From contig NZ_BAOS01000001.1 in the NCBI RefSeq assembly GCF_002443295.1, positions 124,001 through 188,000 on the forward strand: a stretch of DNA of 64,000 nt, in the 5' to 3' direction. The DNA comes from Candidatus Scalindua japonica (GTDB lineage Bacteria > Planctomycetota > Brocadiia > Brocadiales > Scalinduaceae). The number at the start of each line of letters is the position of its first letter. Position 1 is the first letter of the stretch. The position numbers were made by a program, and so were the translations under genes. This document shows positions 3,255 through 42,145 of the stretch, in pieces. The notes below the pieces were generated by a model, which worked only from the letters and a program-made list of their open reading frames with translations, ran no database searches and was not told the DNA's origin.

Positions 3255-4652
3255 ATGATGAATAATATAAAGCAGATATTGGTAGTTGAGGATGATGAAT
3301 ATGTTCTTGGTAGTATTAAAAGTGTTCTGGATGGTGAAGGGTATAAGGTCAAAACGGCATCAAATGGTTTGGATGCGCTCAATCTCTATAGAAAAGCACC
3401 ATATGCTTTGGTTGTTTCTGACCTTAAAATGCCACAAATGGATGGATTTGAATTATTAAAGCAACTAAAGAATGAGTACCCGGATGTATCTTTGATTATG
3501 ATGACGGCATATGGCAGTGTTAGAACTGCCGTTGAAGCGATGAAGATAGGTGCATATGATTATCTCACTAAACCCGTTTCTGCTGAAGAGTTAAGGCTAG
3601 TTGTCAAACGTGTATTTGAAAAACAGAAATTAATTATAGAAAACAAGTTATTACGCAAGGAACTCGAAGAGAGGTTTGGTTTTGGCAATATAATTGGGAA
3701 GTCACACAGAATTCAGCAAGTTTATGATATAGTCACTCAGGTGGCAGATACAGATGCTACCGTCTTAATAACTGGAGAAACTGGTACAGGGAAAGAGCTT
3801 GTAGCACATGCAATTCATCAGAATAGTAACAGAAAGAACTCGCCTTTTGTTATTATGAATTGTAGCGCCTTACCAGAAACATTACTGGAGACTGAGCTCT
3901 TTGGACATGAAGAAGGGGCTTTTACAGGTGCGATAAAGCAAAGGACAGGTAAATTTGAACATGCTGATAAAGGGACTGTTTTTTTTGATGAAATGAGTAA
4001 TCTGCCCCTTTCTATGCAAGCGAAACTTCTCAGGTTATTACAGGAGAAGTCGTTCGAAAGAATTGGTGGAAACCATACTATTAATGTTGATGTAAGGATC
4101 ATTGCCGCTACAAATAAAGATCTAAAAAAATTATCAGAAGAAGGGAGTTTTAGAAATGATTTATATTACCGTTTAAATGTTGTTCCAATACAATTGCCTC
4201 CATTACGAGAGAGGAGAGAGGATATCCCTTTACTCGTATCACATTTTATCGAAAAATATAATAAATCATTTAAGAAAGATATTAAATCTATTTCACCGAA
4301 TGCCCTTACTATTTTAATGTCTTACTACTGGCCAGGTAATGTCAGGGAACTTGAAAACCTGGTTGAGCGAGCGGTAATCATGATGAAAGGTGATATAATA
4401 AATGAGGTAGATCTATTAATTCCCACAAATAAGCAACAGGAAGAAGGATTAAAAGGACTTTATGATGGTAGAATCACAGATAGTAGTTTAGAAGAGTTCT
4501 TATCACATTGCGAGGAAACATATATAACCAAACTTTTAAAACGATATAAAGGACGTATCGACTCATCTGCGAAAATATCTGGTATCGACTCAAAAACCCT
4601 TTACCGCAAAATGAAGAAATACGATATTAACAAAGATAGCTTCAAAGATTAA
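3255..4652 (+). CDS. NtrC-family sigma54-dependent response regulator
   Basis: The protein has 465 residues in the classic three-domain order. The receiver domain (1-120) has phospho-acceptor Asp56 in VVSDLKMP and the conserved Lys in YLTKPVS. The AAA+ sigma54-interaction domain (about 145-380) has Walker A GETGTGKE, the sigma54-contact loop GAFTGA near residue 221, and Walker B-like FFDEMSNL. The C-terminal Fis-type helix-turn-helix (about 415-460) contains GIDSKTLYRKMKKY. It would activate sigma54 promoters after phosphorylation, probably by the kinase at the left edge. A strong sigma54 promoter at 5086-5101 lies about 430 bp downstream, ahead of the PII/Amt genes, making that operon a plausible target. 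The length is normal for the family. Confidence 0.95.
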   Translation: MMNNIKQILVVEDDEYVLGSIKSVLDGEGYKVKTASNGLDALNLYRKAPYALVVSDLKMPQMDGFELLKQLKNEYPDVSLIMMTAYGSVRTAVEAMKIGAYDYLTKPVSAEELRLVVKRVFEKQKLIIENKLLRKELEERFGFGNIIGKSHRIQQVYDIVTQVADTDATVLITGETGTGKELVAHAIHQNSNRKNSPFVIMNCSALPETLLETELFGHEEGAFTGAIKQRTGKFEHADKGTVFFDEMSNLPLSMQAKLLRLLQEKSFERIGGNHTINVDVRIIAATNKDLKKLSEEGSFRNDLYYRLNVVPIQLPPLRERREDIPLLVSHFIEKYNKSFKKDIKSISPNALTILMSYYWPGNVRELENLVERAVIMMKGDIINEVDLLIPTNKQQEEGLKGLYDGRITDSSLEEFLSHCEETYITKLLKRYKGRIDSSAKISGIDSKTLYRKMKKYDINKDSFKD

Positions 4653-8456: not shown

Positions 8457-11400
8457 TTATGCATCAGACTTATTCCTCTTCGCCTGGATTGCTATTGTCT
8501 CTAGAAGCCTTCTTTGATTTGTTGATATCGTTGGTCCTTCAACATCAAGAGCGGCATAGGGGATATCGTTTTTGTTTGCTAATGGACGAACTATTGCATG
8601 AGCGTTCATGGCGGGTTGACAGTTAAAGCAGCCAAGGTTTATTAAAGCATCATATACTCCGGTTTTAATAGAGCAGATATATCTTCCTGTTGTAACCGGA
8701 GTTTCACTGAATGCGTTATAAGAAATATGTTTATTGCCCTCCTGTATAATATCAAGAAATGGTATATGCACATCAAACATGAGATTTGATGTTAACATTA
8801 TTTTACGAAGCCGTTTCATTTCTTTTTCAATGAAAGCCATTGTTATTCTGTTTTGTAATGCATTAAAAGCGTTTTTTCTATTTCCGTTAAATAGTGAAGT
8901 CAGAGCTCCTTTCGCTATTGATGTAAAACTGAACTGCTCCTTTAGATCGCTTACACCTCTCTGTAAGCTGAAGTTAAGGACCGGTTTCGAGAAGAGCCAG
9001 AGAATTCCCTCTGTAAAATCAACAACTTTTGGTATGACTCCCTGTTCCAGAAAAAATTCACTTACCGGGTAGTGAACAAATAATAAGTTGAGCCCACCGA
9101 TTATCAGTACTTTGGGCATTTCCTCCAACGAAATTTTACGCGGTATTTCAGCCATCTTTATTGCCCACTCTTTTAAGGCAGGGATAAAGTGCTTATTGCT
9201 TTTTATATATTCAACTAAACGATCTGTCTCTTTATCAAACACGCTTAGTGCTGACTCTTTATTTTGTGCGACACATATAAGTGCGTTCTTTGCTTCTTCA
9301 AGAAAATGTCCTAAAATAATTGCACGGATTATTTCTATTGAATGCATTCTCTTAAGACCAAGGTTCTTATTCTCGGGTAGCCATTGAGTAGAAAACATGA
9401 AGTTTTTCAGATTGAGCTTCTTGACAAAAACTTCGCCTATTGCAGGCCATGAACCGTACTGGCAGGGCCCCTCCATATTCAGATTGACACATAACGTTAT
9501 TTCATCCTCACGCCTGTTTTCATATAAGTCTTTCAAGACGAAACCGGTGATCGCGATAAAGGGGAAGCATTCACGACCTGAACACATCTTTTTACCATAC
9601 TGTATAATTTCAGCACTTGTTTTGTCATTGATTCTACAATTAACACCATACCTGTTAAAGATACCTTTCATCATAAGTTTTGAGTAATGGTTGAAATCGT
9701 AAGTAATAACATGTGTTATTCGAGGATCATTCAATTTAATCCGTTTATTATCACTATCAATAATGTGCTGATAATTCTCTGTAAAACGGGCCTGTTTAAA
9801 TTCTAAATCATTAATTGTGTCTGTGTTCTGTTCTCTTGATTTCAATCTTCTTTTCTTACGTCGTTGAGCATTGATAATATCAAAAAAAGCGCTTAATCGA
9901 GTTTCAAAACCAGCATAAGCAGTGTGTGAATCTATCTCTAAATAACAGAAGGTATGTCCCTGAAGCTCATCTCGAAAATAATGATACATACATGCGTCCG
10001 GGCCACATGAAAAGCAGGAAATAAAACATAAGTAAAAATCAGCATTATTTTTAGCATAAGCTATTGCATTGTCAATCTGTCTTGTATGATGCCATACATC
10101 TCTTTCAGGATATTCACCATCAAATTGTGGGACCATATCGGCGGGTACAACATGATAACCCATGCTGGCAATTTTGCGTGGAAGGGCAAAGTTAACTTCA
10201 GAAGAGCAGGTGACATAAGGTCTTCCCGCGAGGATAATTGTAGGTTTGTTTTTCAACTTTTCAAACTCTGCCTTGCTTCGCTTTTGATACTGCTTCATGT
10301 ACTCGTTATAGTGAGAAAGTGCTTTCTGCCCGGCGTCCTTTATAATATCTTTTTCCAAACCTAATAGAGGACTCAATTTTTCCAATTCAATAGATGTAAT
10401 TCTGTTATAATCATTTGAAAACCAGATACTGGGGGATAAAACCTTGTCATCTAGATCCGGAAAGGCTTTGCGTATAATATCAGGAATTGCGGATGTAGAT
10501 GGGCATGTATAGGAATAAGAATCCTTGCCCAGCTCAATCACTCGTGGCATAAGGATATAATCAACGTTGCGGTCAATAAGATCATAGACCGCTCCATGGT
10601 ATATCTCGCATGGATAACAGATAGGTGATCTGGTTTTCTTTTTACCTTCCTTTGAAGGGTTTGATAAGATTATGTTATACCCCAGTTCATTGATCAGTTT
10701 TGTAAAATAAGGAAAGAGATTATAAGCAGTGAGTGCCATGGGAAGGCCGATTGTACCACGTGCATTTTTTATGGTGTGCGGGCCGAACTCCTTAAACATC
10801 ATCTCATTCCAGACTGCAACCAGGTCACGACCTTCCTTAATTGTATTATCTTTATGACGCACTTTCTCGTATTTGGAACAGAGTCCCCCAAAGGGATATA
10901 TTTTTCCACCGGTCTCTATTCTCTTGATTTCACAATTGTTTTCACAGGACTTGCATCGGAAAGATTCTTTTTCGTTGATCTTGTTTTTTATTATATCCTC
11001 AAGTTTATAATGTTCTTCTTTTGCATCTCCATCTCTTAATAGATCTCTTGCCATCAGGGCACTTCCAACACTTCCCATGAGTTCCGGATGAGGTGGTACG
11101 ACCACCTTTTGCTGTACACGAGAGGCTATTGCCAATGCAACAGATCTGTTCAGGGCAACTCCTCCCATAAACATAAGGTTGTTTCCAATATGCCTGGGTC
11201 CGACAATTCGAGAGATATAATTGTCAGCTATTGAGTATACAAGGCCGGCAATAACATCTTCCTGGTCTGCTTCCTGCTGAAGAGCATTTCGTATATCAGT
11301 ATTGATAAAAGCGGCACATCTTTCACCAAATGATATGGGTTGGGTACTCTTACGGGCAACGTTACTGATATTCTCCATCTCAATACCCATATCTATAGAT

Positions 11401-12758
11401 GCTGATTCTTCAATAAAACTACCCGTACCGGCCGAACAGCCTTCGTTCATTGCATAATCAACCGGGTTTCCGTTTAAAAAGGAGATGAACTTCGAATCCT
11501 GTCCACCAATTTCAAATACGGTTTCTACATCAGGGAGCTCTTCGGATGCTGCTCTTGCATGGGCTAATATTTCGTTAAAACTGAAGCAATTGTCAAGATA
11601 AACAGATACGATTTCTCTTCCGGACCCTGTTACTGCTGTCTGAATAATTCTGATAGATTTATTACCGCGCTGTTTAATAAGTTCGAGAAGACAGTTTTTT
11701 GTCGCCTGAACGGGATTTCCAAGGGTCCTTAAATAGCAGCTTGCCGCGACAACACCATCGTCAATAGGTAACAATACTGCCTTCGTTGTTGTTGAGCCTG
11801 CATCTACTCCAAGGATGTACGATTCATTATCAATTATCGTTTGTTTATTACTTTCAGTCCGAACCCGGTAATCTAAAAATTGTTCTGCTTCACTAAGCGG
11901 TGTTATCTTTTCAAATTCAGTCATAGATTCTTTGAACCATTTTTCAAACGTCAGGCCGGTTGTATTTTCAGGAAGTTCTGACGCAAAAAGAGATGCTCCA
12001 AAAGCCTCTATATAGGGACTTTCCGGTAGTACAATTATATTTGAATTGACAAAAAGTCCGCGTAGTTTCTCAATAAATGGTTCATTCAATGCAACCTGTC
12101 CGCAAATTACGATCAAATCCGTAGACCACTGAGATAATTCTACCATTCGGTAAACTTTAGCGGCCAGATCGTGTATAAGGGTATGGGTTATATCTCCGAC
12201 ACTGCACTCTTTCTGATTCAGTTTATGCGTTACATCAGATTTACAATGAACAGAACATCGTGTTGCAATAGGTACACAATTACCTTTTTTACTCTCTTCA
12301 AGCCCCTCTGAAAGAGAGAGACCTATTCTTTTAAACTGCTGAACAATAAATTCACCGGTACCTGAAGCACATTTTGAACTTGAGAGTATGTCCTTTATTT
12401 TTCCATCCTTCATAGGATACGCATTAAACGTTTCCCCTCCAAGTGAAAGTACCATATCTGGATTGAGGTTATGAAACAACATGGATTTTTCAATACATTC
12501 TGTTTCTGAAAAATAGGGAAGGTTGGTAAGTGACCTGGATGCCTGTCCGGTTGCAGCTATTCTGGAATTATGTGAACATTTATGCCGATCCAGTATTCTT
12601 TGTATGGTTTCTCTGGGTTTTCCTTCATGTCTTTCTACGATAGAGATCGTTTTTCCATTATGAATTCTACGGACCCATTTTACTGATACAGTACCTATTT
12701 CCAGCCCTTCAAAATATGGTACTGATTCACCATTTCTCTTATCTTTTTTGTGGTACAT
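8457..12758 (-). CDS. BcrAD/HgdC-type acyl-CoA dehydratase activase fused to HgdB-like module
   Basis: A giant protein of 1433 residues. I place the start at the ATG at 12758, 9 bp after the UbiB-like stop; a GTG at 12816-12818 would overlap that gene by 52 bp. There are two tandem ASKHA ATPase domains of the BadF/BcrA/HgdC family. The first has GGETFNAYP and CASGTGEF. The second has GVDAGSTTTKAVL, GGQDSKFI, NEGCSAGTGSF and SFGERCAAF, whose cysteines ligate the [4Fe-4S] cluster in HgdC. Next come a Cys cluster (CKSCENNC, GLCSKYEK), a DUF2229-like part, and an HgdB-like part with CFISCFSCGPDACMYH. Activases use ATP to drive a low-potential electron into a dehydratase or reductase. Substrate unknown; it is last in an operon after UbiB and SRPBCC genes. 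Confidence 0.92.
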   Translation of the reverse strand: MYHKKDKRNGESVPYFEGLEIGTVSVKWVRRIHNGKTISIVERHEGKPRETIQRILDRHKCSHNSRIAATGQASRSLTNLPYFSETECIEKSMLFHNLNPDMVLSLGGETFNAYPMKDGKIKDILSSSKCASGTGEFIVQQFKRIGLSLSEGLEESKKGNCVPIATRCSVHCKSDVTHKLNQKECSVGDITHTLIHDLAAKVYRMVELSQWSTDLIVICGQVALNEPFIEKLRGLFVNSNIIVLPESPYIEAFGASLFASELPENTTGLTFEKWFKESMTEFEKITPLSEAEQFLDYRVRTESNKQTIIDNESYILGVDAGSTTTKAVLLPIDDGVVAASCYLRTLGNPVQATKNCLLELIKQRGNKSIRIIQTAVTGSGREIVSVYLDNCFSFNEILAHARAASEELPDVETVFEIGGQDSKFISFLNGNPVDYAMNEGCSAGTGSFIEESASIDMGIEMENISNVARKSTQPISFGERCAAFINTDIRNALQQEADQEDVIAGLVYSIADNYISRIVGPRHIGNNLMFMGGVALNRSVALAIASRVQQKVVVPPHPELMGSVGSALMARDLLRDGDAKEEHYKLEDIIKNKINEKESFRCKSCENNCEIKRIETGGKIYPFGGLCSKYEKVRHKDNTIKEGRDLVAVWNEMMFKEFGPHTIKNARGTIGLPMALTAYNLFPYFTKLINELGYNIILSNPSKEGKKKTRSPICYPCEIYHGAVYDLIDRNVDYILMPRVIELGKDSYSYTCPSTSAIPDIIRKAFPDLDDKVLSPSIWFSNDYNRITSIELEKLSPLLGLEKDIIKDAGQKALSHYNEYMKQYQKRSKAEFEKLKNKPTIILAGRPYVTCSSEVNFALPRKIASMGYHVVPADMVPQFDGEYPERDVWHHTRQIDNAIAYAKNNADFYLCFISCFSCGPDACMYHYFRDELQGHTFCYLEIDSHTAYAGFETRLSAFFDIINAQRRKKRRLKSREQNTDTINDLEFKQARFTENYQHIIDSDNKRIKLNDPRITHVITYDFNHYSKLMMKGIFNRYGVNCRINDKTSAEIIQYGKKMCSGRECFPFIAITGFVLKDLYENRREDEITLCVNLNMEGPCQYGSWPAIGEVFVKKLNLKNFMFSTQWLPENKNLGLKRMHSIEIIRAIILGHFLEEAKNALICVAQNKESALSVFDKETDRLVEYIKSNKHFIPALKEWAIKMAEIPRKISLEEMPKVLIIGGLNLLFVHYPVSEFFLEQGVIPKVVDFTEGILWLFSKPVLNFSLQRGVSDLKEQFSFTSIAKGALTSLFNGNRKNAFNALQNRITMAFIEKEMKRLRKIMLTSNLMFDVHIPFLDIIQEGNKHISYNAFSETPVTTGRYICSIKTGVYDALINLGCFNCQPAMNAHAIVRPLANKNDIPYAALDVEGPTISTNQRRLLETIAIQAKRNKSDA

Positions 12759-12766
12759 AGACAGAA

Positions 12767-14437
12767 TTATTTTTTTCGTAAATAGAAAAACATTAAAATA
12801 ATGAGAAGAAAAATCCACCAGAGTTCTTTTCCGGACGTGATTATCTGTAATAAAAACTCGTTACCTTGTCCTCGTCCCAGGTAGAACAGACCAAAAATAA
12901 TTGTAGAGACAAATATGGAGACGGCCAGCTTATTAAGTCCTTTTTGAATTCCGGTAAGCTGCTTGATTAAACTGGTCTCCTCTATTTCAACTTTAAGCTT
13001 TCCTTCTTTTATTTTGTCTACTATATCCTGAAAGTTTGCAGGATATTTCGAAATGAGCTGTTTATAGTCAAGTAATGACTTTTGCATATCCTGGACAACA
13101 GATTCAGATAAAAATTGAGATTGAATCAGCTTTTTCAGCTTAGGTCCCCAATCCTTCCTCCAGTCAAAATCCACACCTACATATCGAAAAGTTCCATCCC
13201 AGAAGCAGATCGTTCTAAAGAGCAGAACAAATGACGTGGGTAACGTTATCTTGTGTTGATATTGAATGTGATTAATAATTTCCAGCAGATTTCCTACTGA
13301 TATGTCATTTGATGAAGGTTGATAGTGAATTTCATCAATAAAGTCAATGCAGTCATTGCGGAATTCGATTTCATCAATCGGGGCCAAAGGTGTTCCCATT
13401 TTCAAAAAAGTTTCAGCGAACATATCTATGTCACGATAGATTGCAGCATAGTACCATTTCAAGAGAGCATTAACTGTTACTTTGTCGAGGCTTTCTGTCA
13501 TTCCAAAATCTACGATTGCAAACTCACTCTCTTCCATAATGAGTACATTGCCAGGGTGAGGATCAGACTGAAAAAAACCATACTCGAAAATTGACCTGAA
13601 CACACAATCGTTCAGACGTTCTCCCAGCAGATTACGATCACCCTTGTAGTTTTGAATGTATTCTTTTTGTGTAAGCTTTACTCCCTCTATGTACTGCATG
13701 ACAATAAGATGTTTTGTTGTATATTCCCAGTAGATTTTTGGAATGTGTACCCATGGCATTTTAGATAATACTCTTTCCATACGATCCTGACGTTTTGATT
13801 CGTGTATAAAATCGAGCTCCTCCATTAGTGTATTCTTGAATGACGACAGAAGCTCATCAAAACGATGCAGGGCAAGATGAGGTGTTTTGCGCACCGCCCA
13901 TCTGGCCATGGTTTTTAAAATATCTATATCAACGGATATAAGCTTTTTAAGTTCAGGGCGCTGAACTTTGACGGCAACAATCTCTCCCGTTTTGAGTACG
14001 CCGCAGTGGACTTGAGCTATTGAAGCGGATGATATTGGCTGTTGACTGAATTGAGAAAAAATTTCATTAATCGATTTCCCCGTCTCCTGTTCAATCGTCT
14101 GTTTTATCGTTTTAAAAGGGACTTCGGGAAGTCTGTCCTGCAGTTTTTCCAGCTCTTTTAATATTTCAGGTGAGACAAAATCAGGTCTGACACTTAACCA
14201 TTGCCCGAATTTAATAAAAGTTGTTCCTAACTCTTCAAAAATTCTGCGTATTAAAACGGCAAAATCTTCCTGTTTCGTTATTCTGTTTGAGGAATCGAGC
14301 AGTCTGGATACCAGCGTAACAGGGCTAATGACTGATATGCTTTTAGAGATTGATATAACCTGATATTTAACAAGAATAGTTGCTATTGTTCTAAGACGGT
14401 TGATTTTCCTGATCTGTCTGGGGATGTTGAGAATCAT
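12767..14437 (-). CDS. ABC1/UbiB-family atypical kinase
   Basis: A 556-residue membrane-anchored protein of the UbiB/ADCK/ABC1 family, which supports synthesis or transport of quinones and other prenyl lipids. It has the family's KxGQ motif (FIKFGQWLSVRPD), the Ala-rich loop SSASIAQVH, VAVKVQRP with the invariant Lys, QSDPHPGNVL in the catalytic loop and DFGM for metal binding. Two hydrophobic segments at the C-terminus (about 500-550) fit the usual membrane hairpin. Its neighbours are two SRPBCC proteins upstream and the BcrAD-type giant 8 bp downstream, which points to a membrane-associated hydrophobic substrate. This link is inference. Confidence 0.92.
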   Translation of the reverse strand: MILNIPRQIRKINRLRTIATILVKYQVISISKSISVISPVTLVSRLLDSSNRITKQEDFAVLIRRIFEELGTTFIKFGQWLSVRPDFVSPEILKELEKLQDRLPEVPFKTIKQTIEQETGKSINEIFSQFSQQPISSASIAQVHCGVLKTGEIVAVKVQRPELKKLISVDIDILKTMARWAVRKTPHLALHRFDELLSSFKNTLMEELDFIHESKRQDRMERVLSKMPWVHIPKIYWEYTTKHLIVMQYIEGVKLTQKEYIQNYKGDRNLLGERLNDCVFRSIFEYGFFQSDPHPGNVLIMEESEFAIVDFGMTESLDKVTVNALLKWYYAAIYRDIDMFAETFLKMGTPLAPIDEIEFRNDCIDFIDEIHYQPSSNDISVGNLLEIINHIQYQHKITLPTSFVLLFRTICFWDGTFRYVGVDFDWRKDWGPKLKKLIQSQFLSESVVQDMQKSLLDYKQLISKYPANFQDIVDKIKEGKLKVEIEETSLIKQLTGIQKGLNKLAVSIFVSTIIFGLFYLGRGQGNEFLLQIITSGKELWWIFLLIILMFFYLRKK

Positions 14438-14478
14438 GAATGCTGGTAACTTTCTATTCTAATTTGGTCTAATTGGTA

Positions 14479-15087
14479 TTATTTAACAGTGCTCATTAAA
14501 TATCTTTTTCCTGAAAGCCATACTTCCAGACCCTTTTTCGTCTGAAAAATACATATCGACTTTTTTGCTCGTGTTCTGGTATCAATACCTTCGCTTCCAA
14601 CAGTAGGATGCGGTATCTGATCAATTGGTTTTTGCTGTTCTAAGTCTCCAGTAACAGGACTTCTTTTGTAAGCTAATCTTTTATTCAGTGCTTCACCAAG
14701 TTGTGTAAGGTTATTCAGGAATTTAGAGTAGATTATACTTTTAGGAACAAACTTTCCTGTTTCCAGCATTACTGAAATCTTAAGGATTATTCCTGCTCCG
14801 TCAGTGGCTGGCATAAATGTCCAATTGCCTTCATAACGTTTAAACCAACCCTTAATCTGCCTGAATTTAATACTATTCTCAGTGGTTAAATCAAATTCAA
14901 TCGTCGATTTTATCGTAATATGTGATTCTCTGGATACAACATCTAAAACACTTAGACTCCCCTCTTTTTTGACTACGTTAACGCTTTGTACCCCAGGCCA
15001 CCATTGTGACCACTCTTCAAAAGTGAGTAATTCCTGGAGTGTATTTTCTTTTGATACATTGATTTTTATGTATTTGTGTATATTCAC
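14479..15087 (-). CDS. SRPBCC (polyketide cyclase/START-like) protein, copy 2
   Basis: A 202-residue protein of the SRPBCC hydrophobic-ligand-binding fold. The pattern of an N-terminal strand, FEEWSQWWPGVQSVNV, a long beta stretch with a YEGNW turn and a C-terminal helix is typical of cyclase/dehydrase-like members. The start is a GTG that directly abuts the TAA of the preceding SRPBCC gene (TAAGTG), so translation is probably coupled. Its last residues (EVWLSGKRYLMSTVK) match the end of the neighbour (AVWFLGSKYLYKKVE), so the pair arose by tandem duplication. Ligand unknown; a lipid, acyl chain or quinone precursor would suit the UbiB-like neighbour. Confidence 0.8.
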   Translation of the reverse strand: MNIHKYIKINVSKENTLQELLTFEEWSQWWPGVQSVNVVKKEGSLSVLDVVSRESHITIKSTIEFDLTTENSIKFRQIKGWFKRYEGNWTFMPATDGAGIILKISVMLETGKFVPKSIIYSKFLNNLTQLGEALNKRLAYKRSPVTGDLEQQKPIDQIPHPTVGSEGIDTRTRAKKSICIFQTKKGLEVWLSGKRYLMSTVK

Positions 15088-15624
15088 TTATTCGACTTTT
15101 TTGTATAAATATTTCGAACCAAGAAACCAGACAGCAAATCCTTCAGCTTGGAAAGCTTCTTTAATATCGGCGTCCAGACCTGATAGTGGTTGAAAATCCT
15201 GTGTAAAAGTAGAGGGTTGAGAAAACATCTGCGATAGCATATCCAGCCTGCGTTGAAAGATAAGGTTTGACATCTTTGTGTTAGGCTTATAATGCATTGC
15301 TCCTGATATTGTTGTTCCATTTCCTTCCGGTGAATCAATAATATTCCAACTACCATAAAGACCGTTAAAGTGTTTGCCCGTTTCTTCAAATATTCCAATC
15401 TGTTTAAATGTTATCGAAGTTGGTCTTGAACAAACAAATTCAAGTTGATACTTTTCCTCCATTAGCTCAGGAGAGCAAAAATCTGCAACGAAAATATCTC
15501 CTTCCTGAGCGATAACAGATGCATCTTGAATATCCGGCATCCACTCGACGTAACCATTGAAATCGTAAAGAACATTAAAAACCTGTTCCTTTGTTGTATT
15601 ATTGATGTTTACACTTGATCTCAT
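15088..15624 (-). CDS. SRPBCC (coenzyme Q-binding/START-like) protein, copy 1
   Basis: A 178-residue SRPBCC protein. It begins with VNINNTTKEQVFNVLYDFNGYVEWMPDIQDA, the usual helix-grip opening with an aromatic pocket, continues with LYGSWNIIDSPEG and ISGAMHYKP strands, and closes with a long helix and the shared terminal AVWFLGSKY motif. The ribosome site AGGTGAG precedes the ATG. It is directly followed by its diverged paralogue. In known pathways such folds carry or cyclise hydrophobic intermediates; whether this one is a catalyst or a carrier cannot be read from sequence. Confidence 0.82.
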   Translation of the reverse strand: MRSSVNINNTTKEQVFNVLYDFNGYVEWMPDIQDASVIAQEGDIFVADFCSPELMEEKYQLEFVCSRPTSITFKQIGIFEETGKHFNGLYGSWNIIDSPEGNGTTISGAMHYKPNTKMSNLIFQRRLDMLSQMFSQPSTFTQDFQPLSGLDADIKEAFQAEGFAVWFLGSKYLYKKVE

Positions 15625-17119: not shown

Positions 17120-17553
17120 GACTTTTCTCCTGAAAAAATTAAAATTATACTAGTGTTAAATTATCATTCCAGATGGAATGTATTTATTTGTTTAATGCTG
17201 TTTTCTGTCGGAGAATGATTTAGAACGGCCTTTATACTAAAACAATATAATGTTATTAATAAAATAGTAACACTTTATTACTCTAAGGTTAAATTGATTA
17301 AACTTTGTACCTGCTTTGCTTCGGTAAAGTAAATAGGCATAAATTGATACATAGGTGTATAGTACAAAAGAAGACGTTAAATGCAATCATATTTTGTGTT
17401 AATTTTCTATCATTTTATCTGATGATCTCCTTTATAACAGGTAATGATGGAGGCAATATTGAGGGTTTTAAGAAGTTGGTAGACTTTACTAATGAAAATA
17501 ATATAGCCTTTTGGCTTTTATGGTCATGAAAGAAATAGTGTTATAATCTGTTC
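17120..17553. other. 434-bp intergenic stretch
   Basis: It separates the PksH-like gene from the 112-residue protein gene, both on the minus strand. It is AT-rich. A small hairpin (AGCC-TTTT-GGCT) at about 17503-17514 lies just past the PksH-like stop but lacks a convincing U tract in the minus direction. No supported gene is seen. A separate promoter for the downstream genes probably lies here. Confidence 0.4.
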
Positions 17554-18333
17554 TTATTCCCATGGAAACTGACCTTTTTCAACAAAGGCTTTGATTTTCT
17601 CCATGTTATCATGCTTGCATAATAATTCTGTGATTTGATTGACCGCGTCCTTCTTCACCTGCTCATTTATTATCCACATCCTTTTGAAATATTCTTTCAG
17701 ATCAACAACTGTTTCTGCCTTTATCCTGTTAACTCTCAGTAAAAACAATCGTACAGATTCATCAGGCGTATTGGTTAATTCATCGATTAAGCCTGATGAA
17801 TAGGCCTTTTCCGCATTAATATTTTGTGTGGTTAATGTCATTAAATATGCCTTCTGGAAACCAGTTCGGCGGATGAGAAAAGGGATAACGCAGGCAGGCA
17901 AAAGTCCGAACAGGGTCTCTGATAAACTGAAAGAAGCTCTTTCGGTTGCAATGGCATAATCACTTGCTGCTACGAAACCAATGCCTCCTGCGGTAGCCTT
18001 TCCGTCTATTATTGAAACAATAATTTTACAAGTTCGGGTAAATCTCTCTAGAAGACTAAAATAAGAACTGGCATACTTTTCTACTTCATCTCTATTGTTG
18101 TGGTCTATCTTTACAACCTCATCAAAATCCATTCCCGTACAGAAAACCTGATTATTGCCCTTCAGGATAACCAGGCGAACATCGGGATTGAGTTCAACAT
18201 TATCAAACAGTAAATTTATCTCATTCAGGAGCAGTATATTTATACTGTTATTATGTTCAGACCTGTCAATAGTAACGGTAACACATCCTGCAGTTTCTTC
18301 AATCCCTAAAGTTTTAAAATGATATCCACTCAT
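17554..18333 (-). CDS. PksH/CurE-like enoyl-CoA hydratase (ECH1 type)
   Basis: A 259-residue crotonase-fold protein. The oxyanion-hole region (VFCTGMDFDE) and the GKATAGGIGFVAASD loop are intact. The stretches SFSLSETLFGL, PACVIPFLIRR and MTLTTQNI and the terminal GQFPWE closely match, from memory, Bacillus PksH and related ECH1 enzymes, which dehydrate HMG-ACP in the HMG-CoA-synthase type beta-branching cassette of trans-AT polyketide synthases. It lies 18 bp after a ketosynthase with the matching decarboxylase signature, the usual partner. No HMG synthase, ECH2 or carrier protein is visible in the window. A stand-alone role in fatty-acyl modification is the alternative. Confidence 0.85.
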   Translation of the reverse strand: MSGYHFKTLGIEETAGCVTVTIDRSEHNNSINILLLNEINLLFDNVELNPDVRLVILKGNNQVFCTGMDFDEVVKIDHNNRDEVEKYASSYFSLLERFTRTCKIIVSIIDGKATAGGIGFVAASDYAIATERASFSLSETLFGLLPACVIPFLIRRTGFQKAYLMTLTTQNINAEKAYSSGLIDELTNTPDESVRLFLLRVNRIKAETVVDLKEYFKRMWIINEQVKKDAVNQITELLCKHDNMEKIKAFVEKGQFPWE

Positions 18334-18351
18334 GTTAACAATATGAAAATA

Positions 18352-19635
18352 TTAGCGATTTAAACACTTTTGATTTTTTACCAATATGCTGCTATTAATA
18401 CCACCAAATCCAAATGAATTTGAAAGTGCGTAATTAATCTTTACATCAGTCAGCACCTTTTTCCCCACAAAATTAACCTGGCGGTCAATAGGGTCGTCTA
18501 AATTTATATCAGGATGGTAAAATCCTTCCTTCATCTGTATAAGTGTGGCAATTAATTCAACAACACCTGCAGAATAGATACAATGCCCAATCAGGGATTT
18601 GGTAGAATTAATATGGATAGATTTCACACACTCCTTAAAAACATGCTTTATTGCATCCAATTCGGTTATGTCTCCTAATGGAGATGAAGTTCCATGGGTA
18701 TTAATATAATCAATCTCTTTGGTTGTAATGCCTGTTTCCTGCAATACAGACTGCATAACTTTTATTTCTCCTTCTATACTTGGGTTTGTAAGATGATTAC
18801 CGTCCAAACCGGAAGCAGCACTTACAATCTCTCCCCTTATTTGAACATCTCTACTCAAGGCACTTTCCATGGATTCTAAAACAACACACCCACTTCCCTG
18901 TCCAAATACAAAACCATCATGCTTCTTGTCAAATGGACGTGAGGCTTTTTCCGGTTGGTCGTTAAAAGTTTGACCGGTCATGGCTCCTAAAATAGAAAAT
19001 GCCTTCAGCTCTAACTCTGAGAAATCAGCTAAAGCTCCTACACAGAGACATGCCTTTACCGTTCCTGCTTGGATTAGTTGATATGCATTGTATAAACCCA
19101 GATTACCACTTGCTGAAGCTCCTCCAACCGAATATCCTATGCCCTTAATATTCAGAATCTCACTGATAGCTCCAATTATATTTGTATCCAAGAAAGAGAT
19201 GGCATATTTTGGATTTATATATTCAGGTTCTTTTAAGAATTTATCGTAGTTATCAATAATATACTTCTGTGATATATTATTGCCGGAGACAATGATGCCA
19301 ATGGAACTACTATCTAATAGAGAATGGATTAATTCAGCATCTAAATAAGCTTGAATAGCTGCACAACTACTGATTTGAGTAGAAAGGTTAGAATTGTTAC
19401 AGACTTTTCGCGATATAGTATATATGCTTTGCGAAATCTCTTCCAGGCTGTTCAAATAGTCAATATAAGAAAAATCTTTTATTTCTGCGCCTATCTTTAC
19501 AGGACATGTATCGGTAGGAATAGTAAGCAGAGTACTGATACCGCTCTTGCCTGATCTTAAACTTTCAGTAAAATCTTCAACATTATGGCCAACACTATTT
19601 ATTACGCCATAACCGGTTATAACAACCCTACCCAT
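18352..19635 (-). CDS. PksF-like decarboxylative ketosynthase (active-site Cys to Ser)
   Basis: A 427-residue beta-ketoacyl synthase fold of FabF size. Both catalytic His motifs are kept: NTHGTSSPLGD and NSTKSLIGH. The nucleophile motif, TACTSG in FabF, reads GGASASG, placing Ser174 where Cys should be. That Cys-to-Ser change is the hallmark of malonyl-ACP decarboxylases (PksF, CurC, MupG type), which supply acetyl-ACP for beta-branching. The gene is followed after 18 bp by the PksH-like gene, and an acyltransferase active-site relic lies at 19817-19909. I infer a polyketide-type origin for the pair; ordinary fatty-acid chain extension by this enzyme is unlikely without the Cys. Confidence 0.9.
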   Translation of the reverse strand: MGRVVITGYGVINSVGHNVEDFTESLRSGKSGISTLLTIPTDTCPVKIGAEIKDFSYIDYLNSLEEISQSIYTISRKVCNNSNLSTQISSCAAIQAYLDAELIHSLLDSSSIGIIVSGNNISQKYIIDNYDKFLKEPEYINPKYAISFLDTNIIGAISEILNIKGIGYSVGGASASGNLGLYNAYQLIQAGTVKACLCVGALADFSELELKAFSILGAMTGQTFNDQPEKASRPFDKKHDGFVFGQGSGCVVLESMESALSRDVQIRGEIVSAASGLDGNHLTNPSIEGEIKVMQSVLQETGITTKEIDYINTHGTSSPLGDITELDAIKHVFKECVKSIHINSTKSLIGHCIYSAGVVELIATLIQMKEGFYHPDINLDDPIDRQVNFVGKKVLTDVKINYALSNSFGFGGINSSILVKNQKCLNR

Positions 19636-19816
19636 TTATTTAGCTATTAATGTGTTTATAAAAAATGTTGACTAAATTATTGATATTCTGTGCATGTCCT
19701 AAATCAACGCTGTGTAAATTTATGGTAATATTAACGAATGACTAAAATTAATTCAAATACAAAACATCAATACATGGCCGATCGCCTACCTTTTTTTAAA
19801 GGGAGAAGTGCATTGA

Positions 19817-19976: not shown

Positions 19977-20909
19977 CTATTGTTGTTGTTGACTCTTATT
20001 TTTCAGATGGTCTTTTATCTTTTCAATCTCTTTTAACGTTATCAACTTTCTGTGTTCCATGGTATCGTACATAGAGTCGGCTATCTCTGACCACTCTTCA
20101 GGGGTATAGTCGTAGTCGTCAGTGTCAGGTAGTGGATGGCAGGCAGTGCATATAAATCTGTAAAGGTAATGACCGAACAGGTACTCATCTTTATTTTTTA
20201 GCTCCTCTTTGGTTAATTCCTTTTTCAGATGGTCTTTTATCTTTTCAATCTCTTTTAACGTTATCAACTTTCTGTGTTCCATAGTATCATACATAGATTC
20301 GGCTATCTCTGACCACTCTTCAGGGGTATAGTCGTAGTCATCTGTGTCCGGCAGCGGGTGGCAGGTAGTACATATAAACCTGTAAAGGTACTGACCGAAC
20401 AGGTCCTCTTCTTCCTTATATAACTCCTCTTTCACCAGCATCTCCTTTGCCAGTTTCTCCTTTGCCAGTTTCTCCTTTGCCAGCTTCTCTTTCGCCAGCT
20501 TCTCCTTCGCCAGCATCTCCTTTGCCAGCATCTCCTTTGCCAGTTTCTCCTTTGCCAGTTTCTCCTTTGCCAGTTTCTCTTTCGTCAGCTTCTCCTTTGC
20601 CAGTTTCTCCTTTGCCAGCTTCTCTTTCGCCAGCTTCTCTTTCGCCAGCTTCTCCTTCGCCAGTTTCTCTTTCGTCAGCTTCTCCTTCGCCAGTTTCTCT
20701 TTCGTCAGCTTCTCCTTCGCCAACTTCTCCTTCGCCAGTTTCTCCTTCGCTAACGTCTCTTTCTCCAACTCTTCTTTTGCTAACTTCTCATTCACCAACT
20801 CCTCCTTTTGGATATCCTTTGTTACCGTTGTTGTACAGCCTGAAATAATCTGCTGAGTAAGAAGCAAAAAAACTATCAAAATGGTATAAACATTAGAACT
20901 TTTTTTCAT
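19977..20909 (-). CDS. Repeat-stalk lipoprotein with two CxxCH heme-binding domains
   Basis: A 310-residue protein. A lipoprotein signal peptide ends in ISGC with Cys25 as lipidation site. Residues 35-164 are 26 tandem pentapeptides (consensus KEKLA, variants KEKLT, KEMLA), which should form one long charged helix or coiled coil. Two near-identical 60-residue domains follow (170-229 and 244-303), each starting [19 protein letters not shown]: CTTCH at 180-184 and CTACH at 254-258 are c-type heme attachment motifs. It would be a membrane-tethered diheme electron carrier on a stalk in the periplasm, or a relay at the outer membrane. The heme axial ligand is not certain; Met206/Met280 and Met210/Met284 are candidates. 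Confidence 0.85.
20001..20180 (-). repeat. Duplicated 180-bp heme-domain segment, copy 2
   Basis: This encodes residues 244-303 of the lipoprotein and is nearly identical at DNA level to 20223-20402, so the duplication is recent or kept uniform by gene conversion. Confidence 0.9.
20223..20402 (-). repeat. Duplicated 180-bp heme-domain segment, copy 1
   Basis: This encodes residues 170-229 of the lipoprotein. It differs from the second copy by a handful of bases, such as CTTCH versus CTACH codons. Confidence 0.9.
20418..20807 (-). repeat. 15-bp tandem repeat array, 26 units
   Basis: The array encodes the KEKLA-type pentapeptides. On the plus strand the unit is TTCTCCTTTGCCAGC with third-base and a few coding variants. 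The multiple-of-three unit means that gain or loss of copies changes stalk length without a frameshift. The complementary strand also stays open across the array, which is an artefact of the repeat. Confidence 0.95.
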
Positions 20910-40645: not shown

Positions 40646-42145
40646 ATGAAGCTTATTATCATATATCCTGACATATTAAAAGGCGCGAACTGGTCCGGTT
40701 ACTATTACACGGGTGTTGGATACATTTCTGCTGCTGCGAAAAAAGCCGGTCATAATGTATCTTTAATGCATATTACCTGCACCCCGGACCAGCATGAATT
40801 CATGAATATGCTCAACAATATCATCTCCCCTGGCAATGAAGCTCTTATAGCATTTTCTGCTACAACAAACATGTTTGGCTTTGTAAAACTCTGGGCGTCA
40901 TGGATAAAAAAAGAATATAAAAATATTATTATTGTTGGAGGCGTACATCCTACCCTAAACCAGGAAGAAACAATCAGTGTAGAAGCTATAGATGCCATAT
41001 GTATAGGGGAGGGAGAGGCTCCTCTGGTTGAATTTATGGATGCATTAGAAAATGGGCGGGACATAACAGGCATACAGAATATATGGACCAAAGTCAATGG
41101 TAAGGTCTGTAAAAATCCTGGCAGGGAAAAAATAAAAGATCTCGATACTTTACCATTTCCTGATAGAGCGATCTTTGATTATAAGAATCTGGACCGTGAG
41201 AGAGAGGGAATTGGTGTCTTTATGGCATCGCGTGGGTGCCCATTTAACTGCTCTTACTGTTGCAACCACGCTATTATGAAAAGTATAGGCGCTTCGAAGG
41301 GATACCTGAGATTCAGGAGTGTTGATAATGTAATAAAAGAGATGAAGCAGGTAGTTCAAGATTATCCATTTATTAAATATATGCACTTCGATGATGATAT
41401 CCTTCCGATGAACAAAGATTGGTTTAAAGAATTCTCAGATAAATATTCAAAAGAGATTTCGTTACCATTTGAATGTAACATACGTCCAAACCTCATAGAT
41501 GAGAATACGATAAAACTTCTCAGCCATTCGGGATGCAGAACACTCAGGATAGGCCTTGAGAGTGGAAATTCTTTCATCAGAAACAAGATATTAAACCGAC
41601 ACCTTTCCGAAGATGAAATCGTCAGGGCCTCTATTATTTGTAAAGATGCGGGCATAAGGCTTTACACATTTAATATGGTGGGTATGCCATTTGAAGATAT
41701 GCCAGCAAGGCTGGATACTATAAAACTAAACGCTAGAATTAATTCAGATGAAGAACAGGTTTCGATCTTTTACCCTTATGAGAAGACAAAGCTGTTTGAT
41801 ATCTGTATGGAGCAGGGTCTTATCAGAAAAAAAGAAGTGACTGACCCATTCAAAGACACATCGTTATCTTTCAATCGAATTCAAAGGAATCAGATTATCT
41901 TTACGGCGTATTACTTTAATTTATTGGTGAGAAATTATAAATTCTACTTTAAATTACCAGAAAGTTTATCAAAAATAATTATTAAAATATCTGATGGGCT
42001 GTTCTCTTCCCGCATTATCGCGCTGACTGTTTTTCCAACTATGAATTCCTTTGTGAGGTTCTTGTCAAAGAATAAAAGGCTTGAAGAATTTGCAAGAAAG
42101 GTGAAACACACCATTTTAAATAGTAGTACAGTCACAGAGGAATAA
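40646..42145 (+). CDS. Cobalamin-binding-type radical SAM protein
   Basis: A 499-residue protein. The N-terminal B12-binding-like domain (1-150) includes YTGVGYISAAAKKAGHNV and IIVGGVHPTLNQEE. The radical SAM core starts with SRGCPFNCSYCCNH (CxxxCxxC cluster ligands) and has MHFDDDILPMNKDW and LRIGLESGN. A C-terminal extension with basic and hydrophobic residues follows. Relatives methylate unreactive carbons or phosphorus, or form rings. It lies within the glycosyltransferase run and ends 2 bp before the next gene. Substrate unknown: a sugar, the polyprenyl lipid or another lipid are all possible. Confidence 0.92.
   Translation: MKLIIIYPDILKGANWSGYYYTGVGYISAAAKKAGHNVSLMHITCTPDQHEFMNMLNNIISPGNEALIAFSATTNMFGFVKLWASWIKKEYKNIIIVGGVHPTLNQEETISVEAIDAICIGEGEAPLVEFMDALENGRDITGIQNIWTKVNGKVCKNPGREKIKDLDTLPFPDRAIFDYKNLDREREGIGVFMASRGCPFNCSYCCNHAIMKSIGASKGYLRFRSVDNVIKEMKQVVQDYPFIKYMHFDDDILPMNKDWFKEFSDKYSKEISLPFECNIRPNLIDENTIKLLSHSGCRTLRIGLESGNSFIRNKILNRHLSEDEIVRASIICKDAGIRLYTFNMVGMPFEDMPARLDTIKLNARINSDEEQVSIFYPYEKTKLFDICMEQGLIRKKEVTDPFKDTSLSFNRIQRNQIIFTAYYFNLLVRNYKFYFKLPESLSKIIIKISDGLFSSRIIALTVFPTMNSFVRFLSKNKRLEEFARKVKHTILNSSTVTEE

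Follow-up and report, generated by a model that had tools for sequence, protein, structure and literature searches.

A PksF/PksH-like gene pair in the anammox bacterium Candidatus Scalindua japonica: probable parts of a split β-branching cassette of a trans-AT polyketide synthase

The gene pair and its surroundings

In the genome of Candidatus Scalindua japonica we find, next to each other, a ketosynthase with a serine in place of its catalytic cysteine and a hydratase related to PksH. Enzymes of these two families take part in the β-branching of polyketides, and the question raised by this locus is which polyketide synthase (PKS) they may serve and with which partners. The window analysed is a stretch of 64,000 nucleotides, C1:124001-188000, C1 being one of the contigs of a 4.81 Mb, 47-contig draft genome. 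Hydrazine synthase alpha is encoded in this genome (order Brocadiales), so the organism is an anammox bacterium. Both open reading frames were confirmed at the coordinates given by an earlier, sequence-only reading of the window. They are on the minus strand, separated by a gap of only 18 bp:

Window 18352-19635, minus strand: KS0, ketosynthase of the PksF family, ORF of 427 aa
Window 17554-18333, minus strand: ECH1, hydratase of the PksH family, ORF of 259 aa

The surroundings are varied. Upstream of KS0 a lipoprotein-like protein (19977-20909, minus strand) carries an extended KEKLA repeat together with two repeats of the cytochrome-c-like motif CxxCH. Region 8457-15624 (minus strand) codes for a side-by-side pair of START-like (Polyketide_cyc) proteins, after which come an ABC1-type kinase and an activase/DUF2229 protein of 1453 aa; that Pfam names the START-like proteins "polyketide cyclase" is not enough to link them to a PKS. 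Used as a synteny probe, the kinase gave only distant, uninformative matches. What appears to be an exopolysaccharide locus, with Poly_export, a sugar transferase and a glycosidase, occupies 28374-62810 on the plus strand and includes B12/radical SAM proteins at 40646 and 53403. A homology search among relatives showed that the radical SAM family of one window protein is expanded and large in the order.

Identity of the two proteins

The sequence-only reading had noticed Ser174 in GGASASG, at the place of the catalytic Cys, with both His motifs kept. Alignment to FabF/FabB bears this out: Ser174, within VGGASASGN, falls on their catalytic Cys, while His314, Lys346 and His351 are retained. The protein reaches 474 bits with the NCBIfam model NF005490/PRK07103 (cut-off 445) and only 313 bits with the fabF model (cut-off 494). 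In two trees, with 71 and 23 rows, it groups with all Ser-type KS0s and apart from FabF/FabB (supports 98 and 99). The catalytic column is Ser in every protein of the KS0 clade (12/12 and 13/13 in the two trees) and Cys in all FabF/FabB rows. The closest row is the KS0 of a genome of the same genus (G325), with 48% identity. The trees were built with a quick method, and the larger one includes two wrong ORFs with very long branches (planctomycete rows L114 and L117); the cleaned 23-row tree has the correct L114 ORF and is without L117. The FabF genes of the genome itself (C13-C15) failed the motif filter and were left out of the KS tree. A pattern search for KS0 relatives matched mostly ordinary FabF proteins, which served as outgroup, and supplied one Ser-type Streptomyces row.

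Beside the KS0 clade of the larger tree there are branches with Cys-type ketosynthases, one from Myxococcales (L063:10001-11278), with ECH-like genes about 2 kb away, and another from G282 (L116). They are possible Cys-type cousins of KS0.

The hydratase contains the three ECH1 signatures previously reported, SFSLSETLFGL, PFLIRR and GQFPWE, the last of which is identical in PksH (PDB 3hp0). It scores 255 bits with NF005498/PRK07112 (cut-off 250), and its top two PDB chains are 4nnq (1e-52) and PksH itself (3hp0, 9e-45). Aligned to 3hp0, its Asp69 and Glu139 correspond to Asp68 and Glu137 of PksH, whose catalytic roles have been probed by mutation (PMC7501309). It falls within the ECH1 clade (support 98), apart from ECH2 and from ordinary enoyl-CoA hydratases.

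The families first proposed are thus borne out by profile scores, trees, active-site residues and the gene neighbourhoods seen in relatives, and the trees that had been suggested as a check place neither protein with FabF or with fatty-acid hydratases. We classify the ketosynthase as a PksF-like KS0, predicted to be inactive in condensation and to decarboxylate malonyl-ACP, and the hydratase as ECH1, a PksH-like homologue of HMG-ACP dehydratases.

Could the pair instead work in fatty-acid or ladderane metabolism, as a synthase of the FabF/FabB type and a common enoyl-CoA hydratase? The organism is an anammox bacterium, and the top PDB sequence matches of the ketosynthase are FabF proteins. However, no PksF-type KS0 is found among its PDB matches, so that this ranking is uninformative. 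The fabF score far under the cut-off, the Ser for Cys and the position of both proteins in the KS0 and ECH1 clades are all contrary to such a role. Furthermore FabF-like ketosynthases are present in every relative searched, while KS0 is found in all four genomes of the order with a PKS-type HMG synthase (HMGS). As far as profiles and trees go, a fatty-acid or ladderane role is refuted, and we give it practically no credit.

Cassette parts outside the window

According to the sequence-only reading, HMGS, ECH2, a dedicated carrier protein and a PKS were not visible here. This is correct as far as the 64-kb window goes; it does not hold for the genome. Its description of the pair as lacking a polyketide synthase has to be abandoned: a trans-AT PKS is found on the same contig at C1:62.7-113.0 kb, just beyond the window, so the apparent absence was due to the window edge. 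The genome search which had been recommended, for PksG-, PksI- and AcpK-like genes and a megasynthase, gave HMGS, ECH2, an AcpK-like ACP and two PKS clusters. The cassette parts are the following:

C1:61213-62445: HMGS, PKS-type HMG synthase of the C1 cluster
C1:118645-118890: AcpK-like donor ACP, best NCBIfam family NF005502
C10:5739-8519: second HMGS-ECH1-ECH2 set, inside another PKS cluster
C10:7278-8519: HMGS of the second set
C10:5739-6503: ECH2 (362 bits), the sole intact ECH2 found in the genome

These genes do not form one cluster: they are scattered at C1:61, 118.6 and 141-144 kb and on C10. Cassette genes are usually clustered, although their function is not known to depend on it. 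The AcpK-like ACP has 72.6 bits with NF005502, 6 bits under the cut-off of 79. Its identity as AcpK is favoured by an AcpK relic beside KS0 and by a related ACP immediately upstream of KS0 in three other genomes of the order (G325, G294 and G295).

The C1 cluster has no intact ECH2, only a relic, and we found neither a KS0 nor an AcpK in the C10 cluster, which is broken in the assembly. The KS0 and AcpK described above are the only ones detected in the 47-contig draft; a second copy of either could sit in a gap, given the draft state of the genome and the broken C10 cluster. The contig ends of C7-C10 and C22 have only diverged PKS repeats, and the order C10-C9-C8-C7 is putative. At the start of C22 (1-2960) there is a broken stand-alone KS, adjoining a transposase-like ORF. 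A probable Sfp-type PPTase, judged from motifs read by eye, is encoded at C1:56568-57320.

A duplicated block with reciprocal decay

The AcpK-KS0-ECH1 block is present twice, 23 kb apart. Four colinear DNA matches join C1:117846-118971 with C1:141429-143770 (E 8e-25 to 7e-7). The traces in the window, all on the minus strand, are:

Window 19716-19770, minus strand: region upstream of AcpK, one edge of the block; matches C1:118916-118971 (80%, 56 nt, E 7e-7)
Window 19643-19741, minus strand: AcpK relic, last third of the gene (tblastn 67% identity, 33 aa, E 2e-9)
Window 17843-18027, minus strand: middle of ECH1; matches the decayed copy C1:118447-118633 (74%, 189 nt, E 8e-25)
Window 17429-17504, minus strand: downstream flank of ECH1, the other edge of the block; matches C1:117846-117921 (84%, 76 nt, E 9e-18)

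The AcpK relic lies directly upstream of KS0. Its start codon and phosphopantetheine Ser have been deleted, and over 69 nt it has 91% DNA identity with the intact AcpK (C1:118649-118717). In the left copy AcpK is whole, KS0 is lost and the ECH1 behind AcpK (C1:118447-118633) is a relic with frameshifts and stops. In the window copy KS0 and ECH1 are intact, and the front of AcpK is lost. A further relic follows the C1 HMGS: about 50 codons from the end of an ECH2 gene. From the pattern of the two copies we infer duplication of a complete AcpK-KS0-ECH1 block, after which each copy lost complementary genes; this would explain why the cassette is split.

The relics suggest another interpretation: KS0 and ECH1 might themselves be leftovers of a decaying cassette, no longer acting. 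Three relics of cassette genes are found nearby, the C1 cluster has no intact ECH2, the same-genus genome G325 likewise has no ECH2, and a frameshift breaks the first KS of the C1 PKS. However, KS0 and ECH1 are full length and keep every active-site residue, whereas their sister copies have suffered deletions, frameshifts and stops. One intact KS0 and one intact AcpK survive, which is the pattern expected if function has been kept, and the PKS reading frames after the first one are still open. We consider it improbable that the pair is a mere remnant.

The polyketide synthase and its predicted target

The trans-AT PKS and its HMGS extend over about 50 kb (C1:61-113 kb) and end 11 kb to the left of the window. 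The PKS proteins (62.7-113.0 kb) have 1220, 810, 4670, 3703, 2589 and 2305 aa. None of them has an AT domain (no PF00698), and discrete ATs are found at C10:45559, C7:57942 and C4:437530: with AT-less modules and ATs elsewhere, the synthase is of the trans-AT type. The first KS is frameshifted by a perfect tandem repeat of 133 bp (period 134; C1:63267-63533), either a recent mutation or an assembly error. The ORFs which follow are open. An MMPL transporter and a downstream methyltransferase belong to the same locus.

The 4670-aa protein (C1_73208) contains KS3 (aa ~2672), two ACPs (ACP3387 and ACP3557), an ER (3676-3970) and KS4 (~4008). Its only KR and DH lie earlier in the protein, so the module KS3-ACP3387-ACP3557-ER has neither. 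Tandem ACPs with a retained β-ketone are the usual layout of a β-branching module (PMC10006238). Having this expected layout, the module is the predicted target of β-branching. At position Ser+6 both ACPs have Leu, not the Trp flag of many acceptor ACPs; in virginiamycin the acceptor ACPs have Phe at this position, and it has been argued that Trp serves to predict such ACPs but is not required (PMC10006238).

The C1 and C10 loci look like related clusters, since they share B12/radical-SAM-type proteins and an MMPL transporter. Three proteins of the former type lie behind the C1 PKS (C1:113200-118432); the third is 57% identical to the one found beside the C10 PKS (C10:43740-45296). The transporters have 67% identity. 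Between the C1 PKS genes, beside a stand-alone ACP, there are also a CoA-dehydratase activase and two HGD-D proteins (C1:69864-73071). HGD-D is the D-component of 2-hydroxyglutaryl-CoA dehydratase: the set corresponds to an oxygen-sensitive radical dehydratase/reductase system within a trans-AT PKS operon.

Proposed function and sharing between assembly lines

We conclude that KS0 and ECH1 are very probably parts of an HCS β-branching cassette of a trans-AT PKS, whose C1 parts would act together although apparently split by duplication and complementary loss. The PKS served by the pair is most likely the one found just outside the window. In these families KS0 converts malonyl-AcpK into acetyl-AcpK, HMGS adds the acetyl to the β-keto chain, ECH1 dehydrates and ECH2 decarboxylates (PMC10006238, PMC7501309). 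In S. japonica KS0 would decarboxylate the malonyl carried by AcpK, the donor ACP at C1:118.6 kb, and the resulting acetyl would be added by HMGS (C1:61.2 kb) to the β-keto chain on the tandem ACPs of the KS-ACP-ACP-ER module. The HMG-type branch would next be dehydrated by ECH1. To reach a β-methyl it would have to be decarboxylated by ECH2, whose sole intact copy was found in the C10 cluster; the embedded ER may finally reduce the double bond, leaving a β-methyl group.

The C1 line might also make a carboxylated or glutaconyl-type branch, without an ECH2 step, for which AcpK, KS0, HMGS and ECH1 would be the whole cassette. This is a variant of the cassette function just described and does not deny it. 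The ECH2 beside the C1 HMGS is cut to its tail, G325 has no ECH2 anywhere and a methyltransferase is found downstream of the C1 PKS. On the other hand, the intact ECH2 of C10 may act in trans, and a reduced methyl branch is what the ER of the module would suggest. We regard a branch without the ECH2 step as rather unlikely.

The cassette may also be shared. The single KS0 and AcpK, complementary survivors of the two blocks, would supply acetyl in trans to two trans-AT PKSs, the C1 and C10 lines, and the C1 line would either borrow the C10 ECH2 or stop at a branch which is not decarboxylated. We advance this as a tentative proposal, to which we lean somewhat less than to its contrary. If true, two assembly lines would share one cassette in nature. 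The reciprocal decay also provides a test, set up by nature, of whether the enzymes of β-branching can recognise carrier proteins from two different lines, a question which is relevant to engineering.

The enzymes and their chemistry are known, and it is the split arrangement that is unusual: an ordinary mechanism in a moderately interesting arrangement. The finding extends trans-AT polyketide chemistry, including β-branching, to anammox bacteria; our searches of an open literature library gave no earlier description of it.

Relatives and known systems

PKS-type HMGS is found in 4 out of 62 genomes of the order: this genome, G325, G294 and G295. All four carry a KS0 over the cut-off. G294 and G295 have AcpK-KS0-HMGS-ECH1-ECH2 in this order, with a 2-kb gap before ECH1 in G295. 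In G325 AcpK and KS0 are adjacent, while HMGS-ECH1 is 37 kb away; a search of that genome for ECH2 gave nothing beyond a weak 18-aa match. As KS0 is also far from HMGS in G325, their separation is a feature shared within the genus; reciprocal decay is seen solely in the genome studied here. Large PKSs occur in several genomes of the anammox order: G325 has a cluster of about 90 kb (G325:C16:25-120 kb) with PKS proteins up to 7218 aa, while G294 and G295 have many more PKS modules. Outside the order, the five annotated plasmid relatives of KS0 that we examined all belong to ACP-KS0 cassettes with HMGS and an ECH.

In the compact cassettes of G294/G295 (family f94) and of Eleftheria, Pseudoalteromonas pTML1, Enterobacter and Ensifer plasmids, identity to the window proteins is 34-42% for KS0 and 28-45% for ECH1. 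They also have an ACP directly upstream of KS0, with HMGS and ECH1 nearby; here the cassette is split and reciprocally decayed.

Module 5 of virginiamycin, served by VirC (HMGS), VirD (ECH1) and VirE (ECH2), resembles our predicted target in having a KS and two ACPs, the acceptor ACPs being without the Trp flag. It differs in that the module described here also holds an ER and has Leu rather than Phe at the flag position.

A further parallel is the HCS cassette for bacillaene in Bacillus subtilis (AcpK, PksF, PksG, PksH, PksI). Members of the corresponding families, in the case of AcpK a probable one, cover all five functions in S. japonica: KS0 belongs to the same family, and the ECH1 of the window keeps the equivalents of PksH Asp68 and Glu137. 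The bacillaene cassette acts on tandem ACPs of a trans-AT PKS, like the target predicted here. In S. japonica, however, the genes are scattered, ECH2 is found only with the other PKS and relics of duplicated copies are present.
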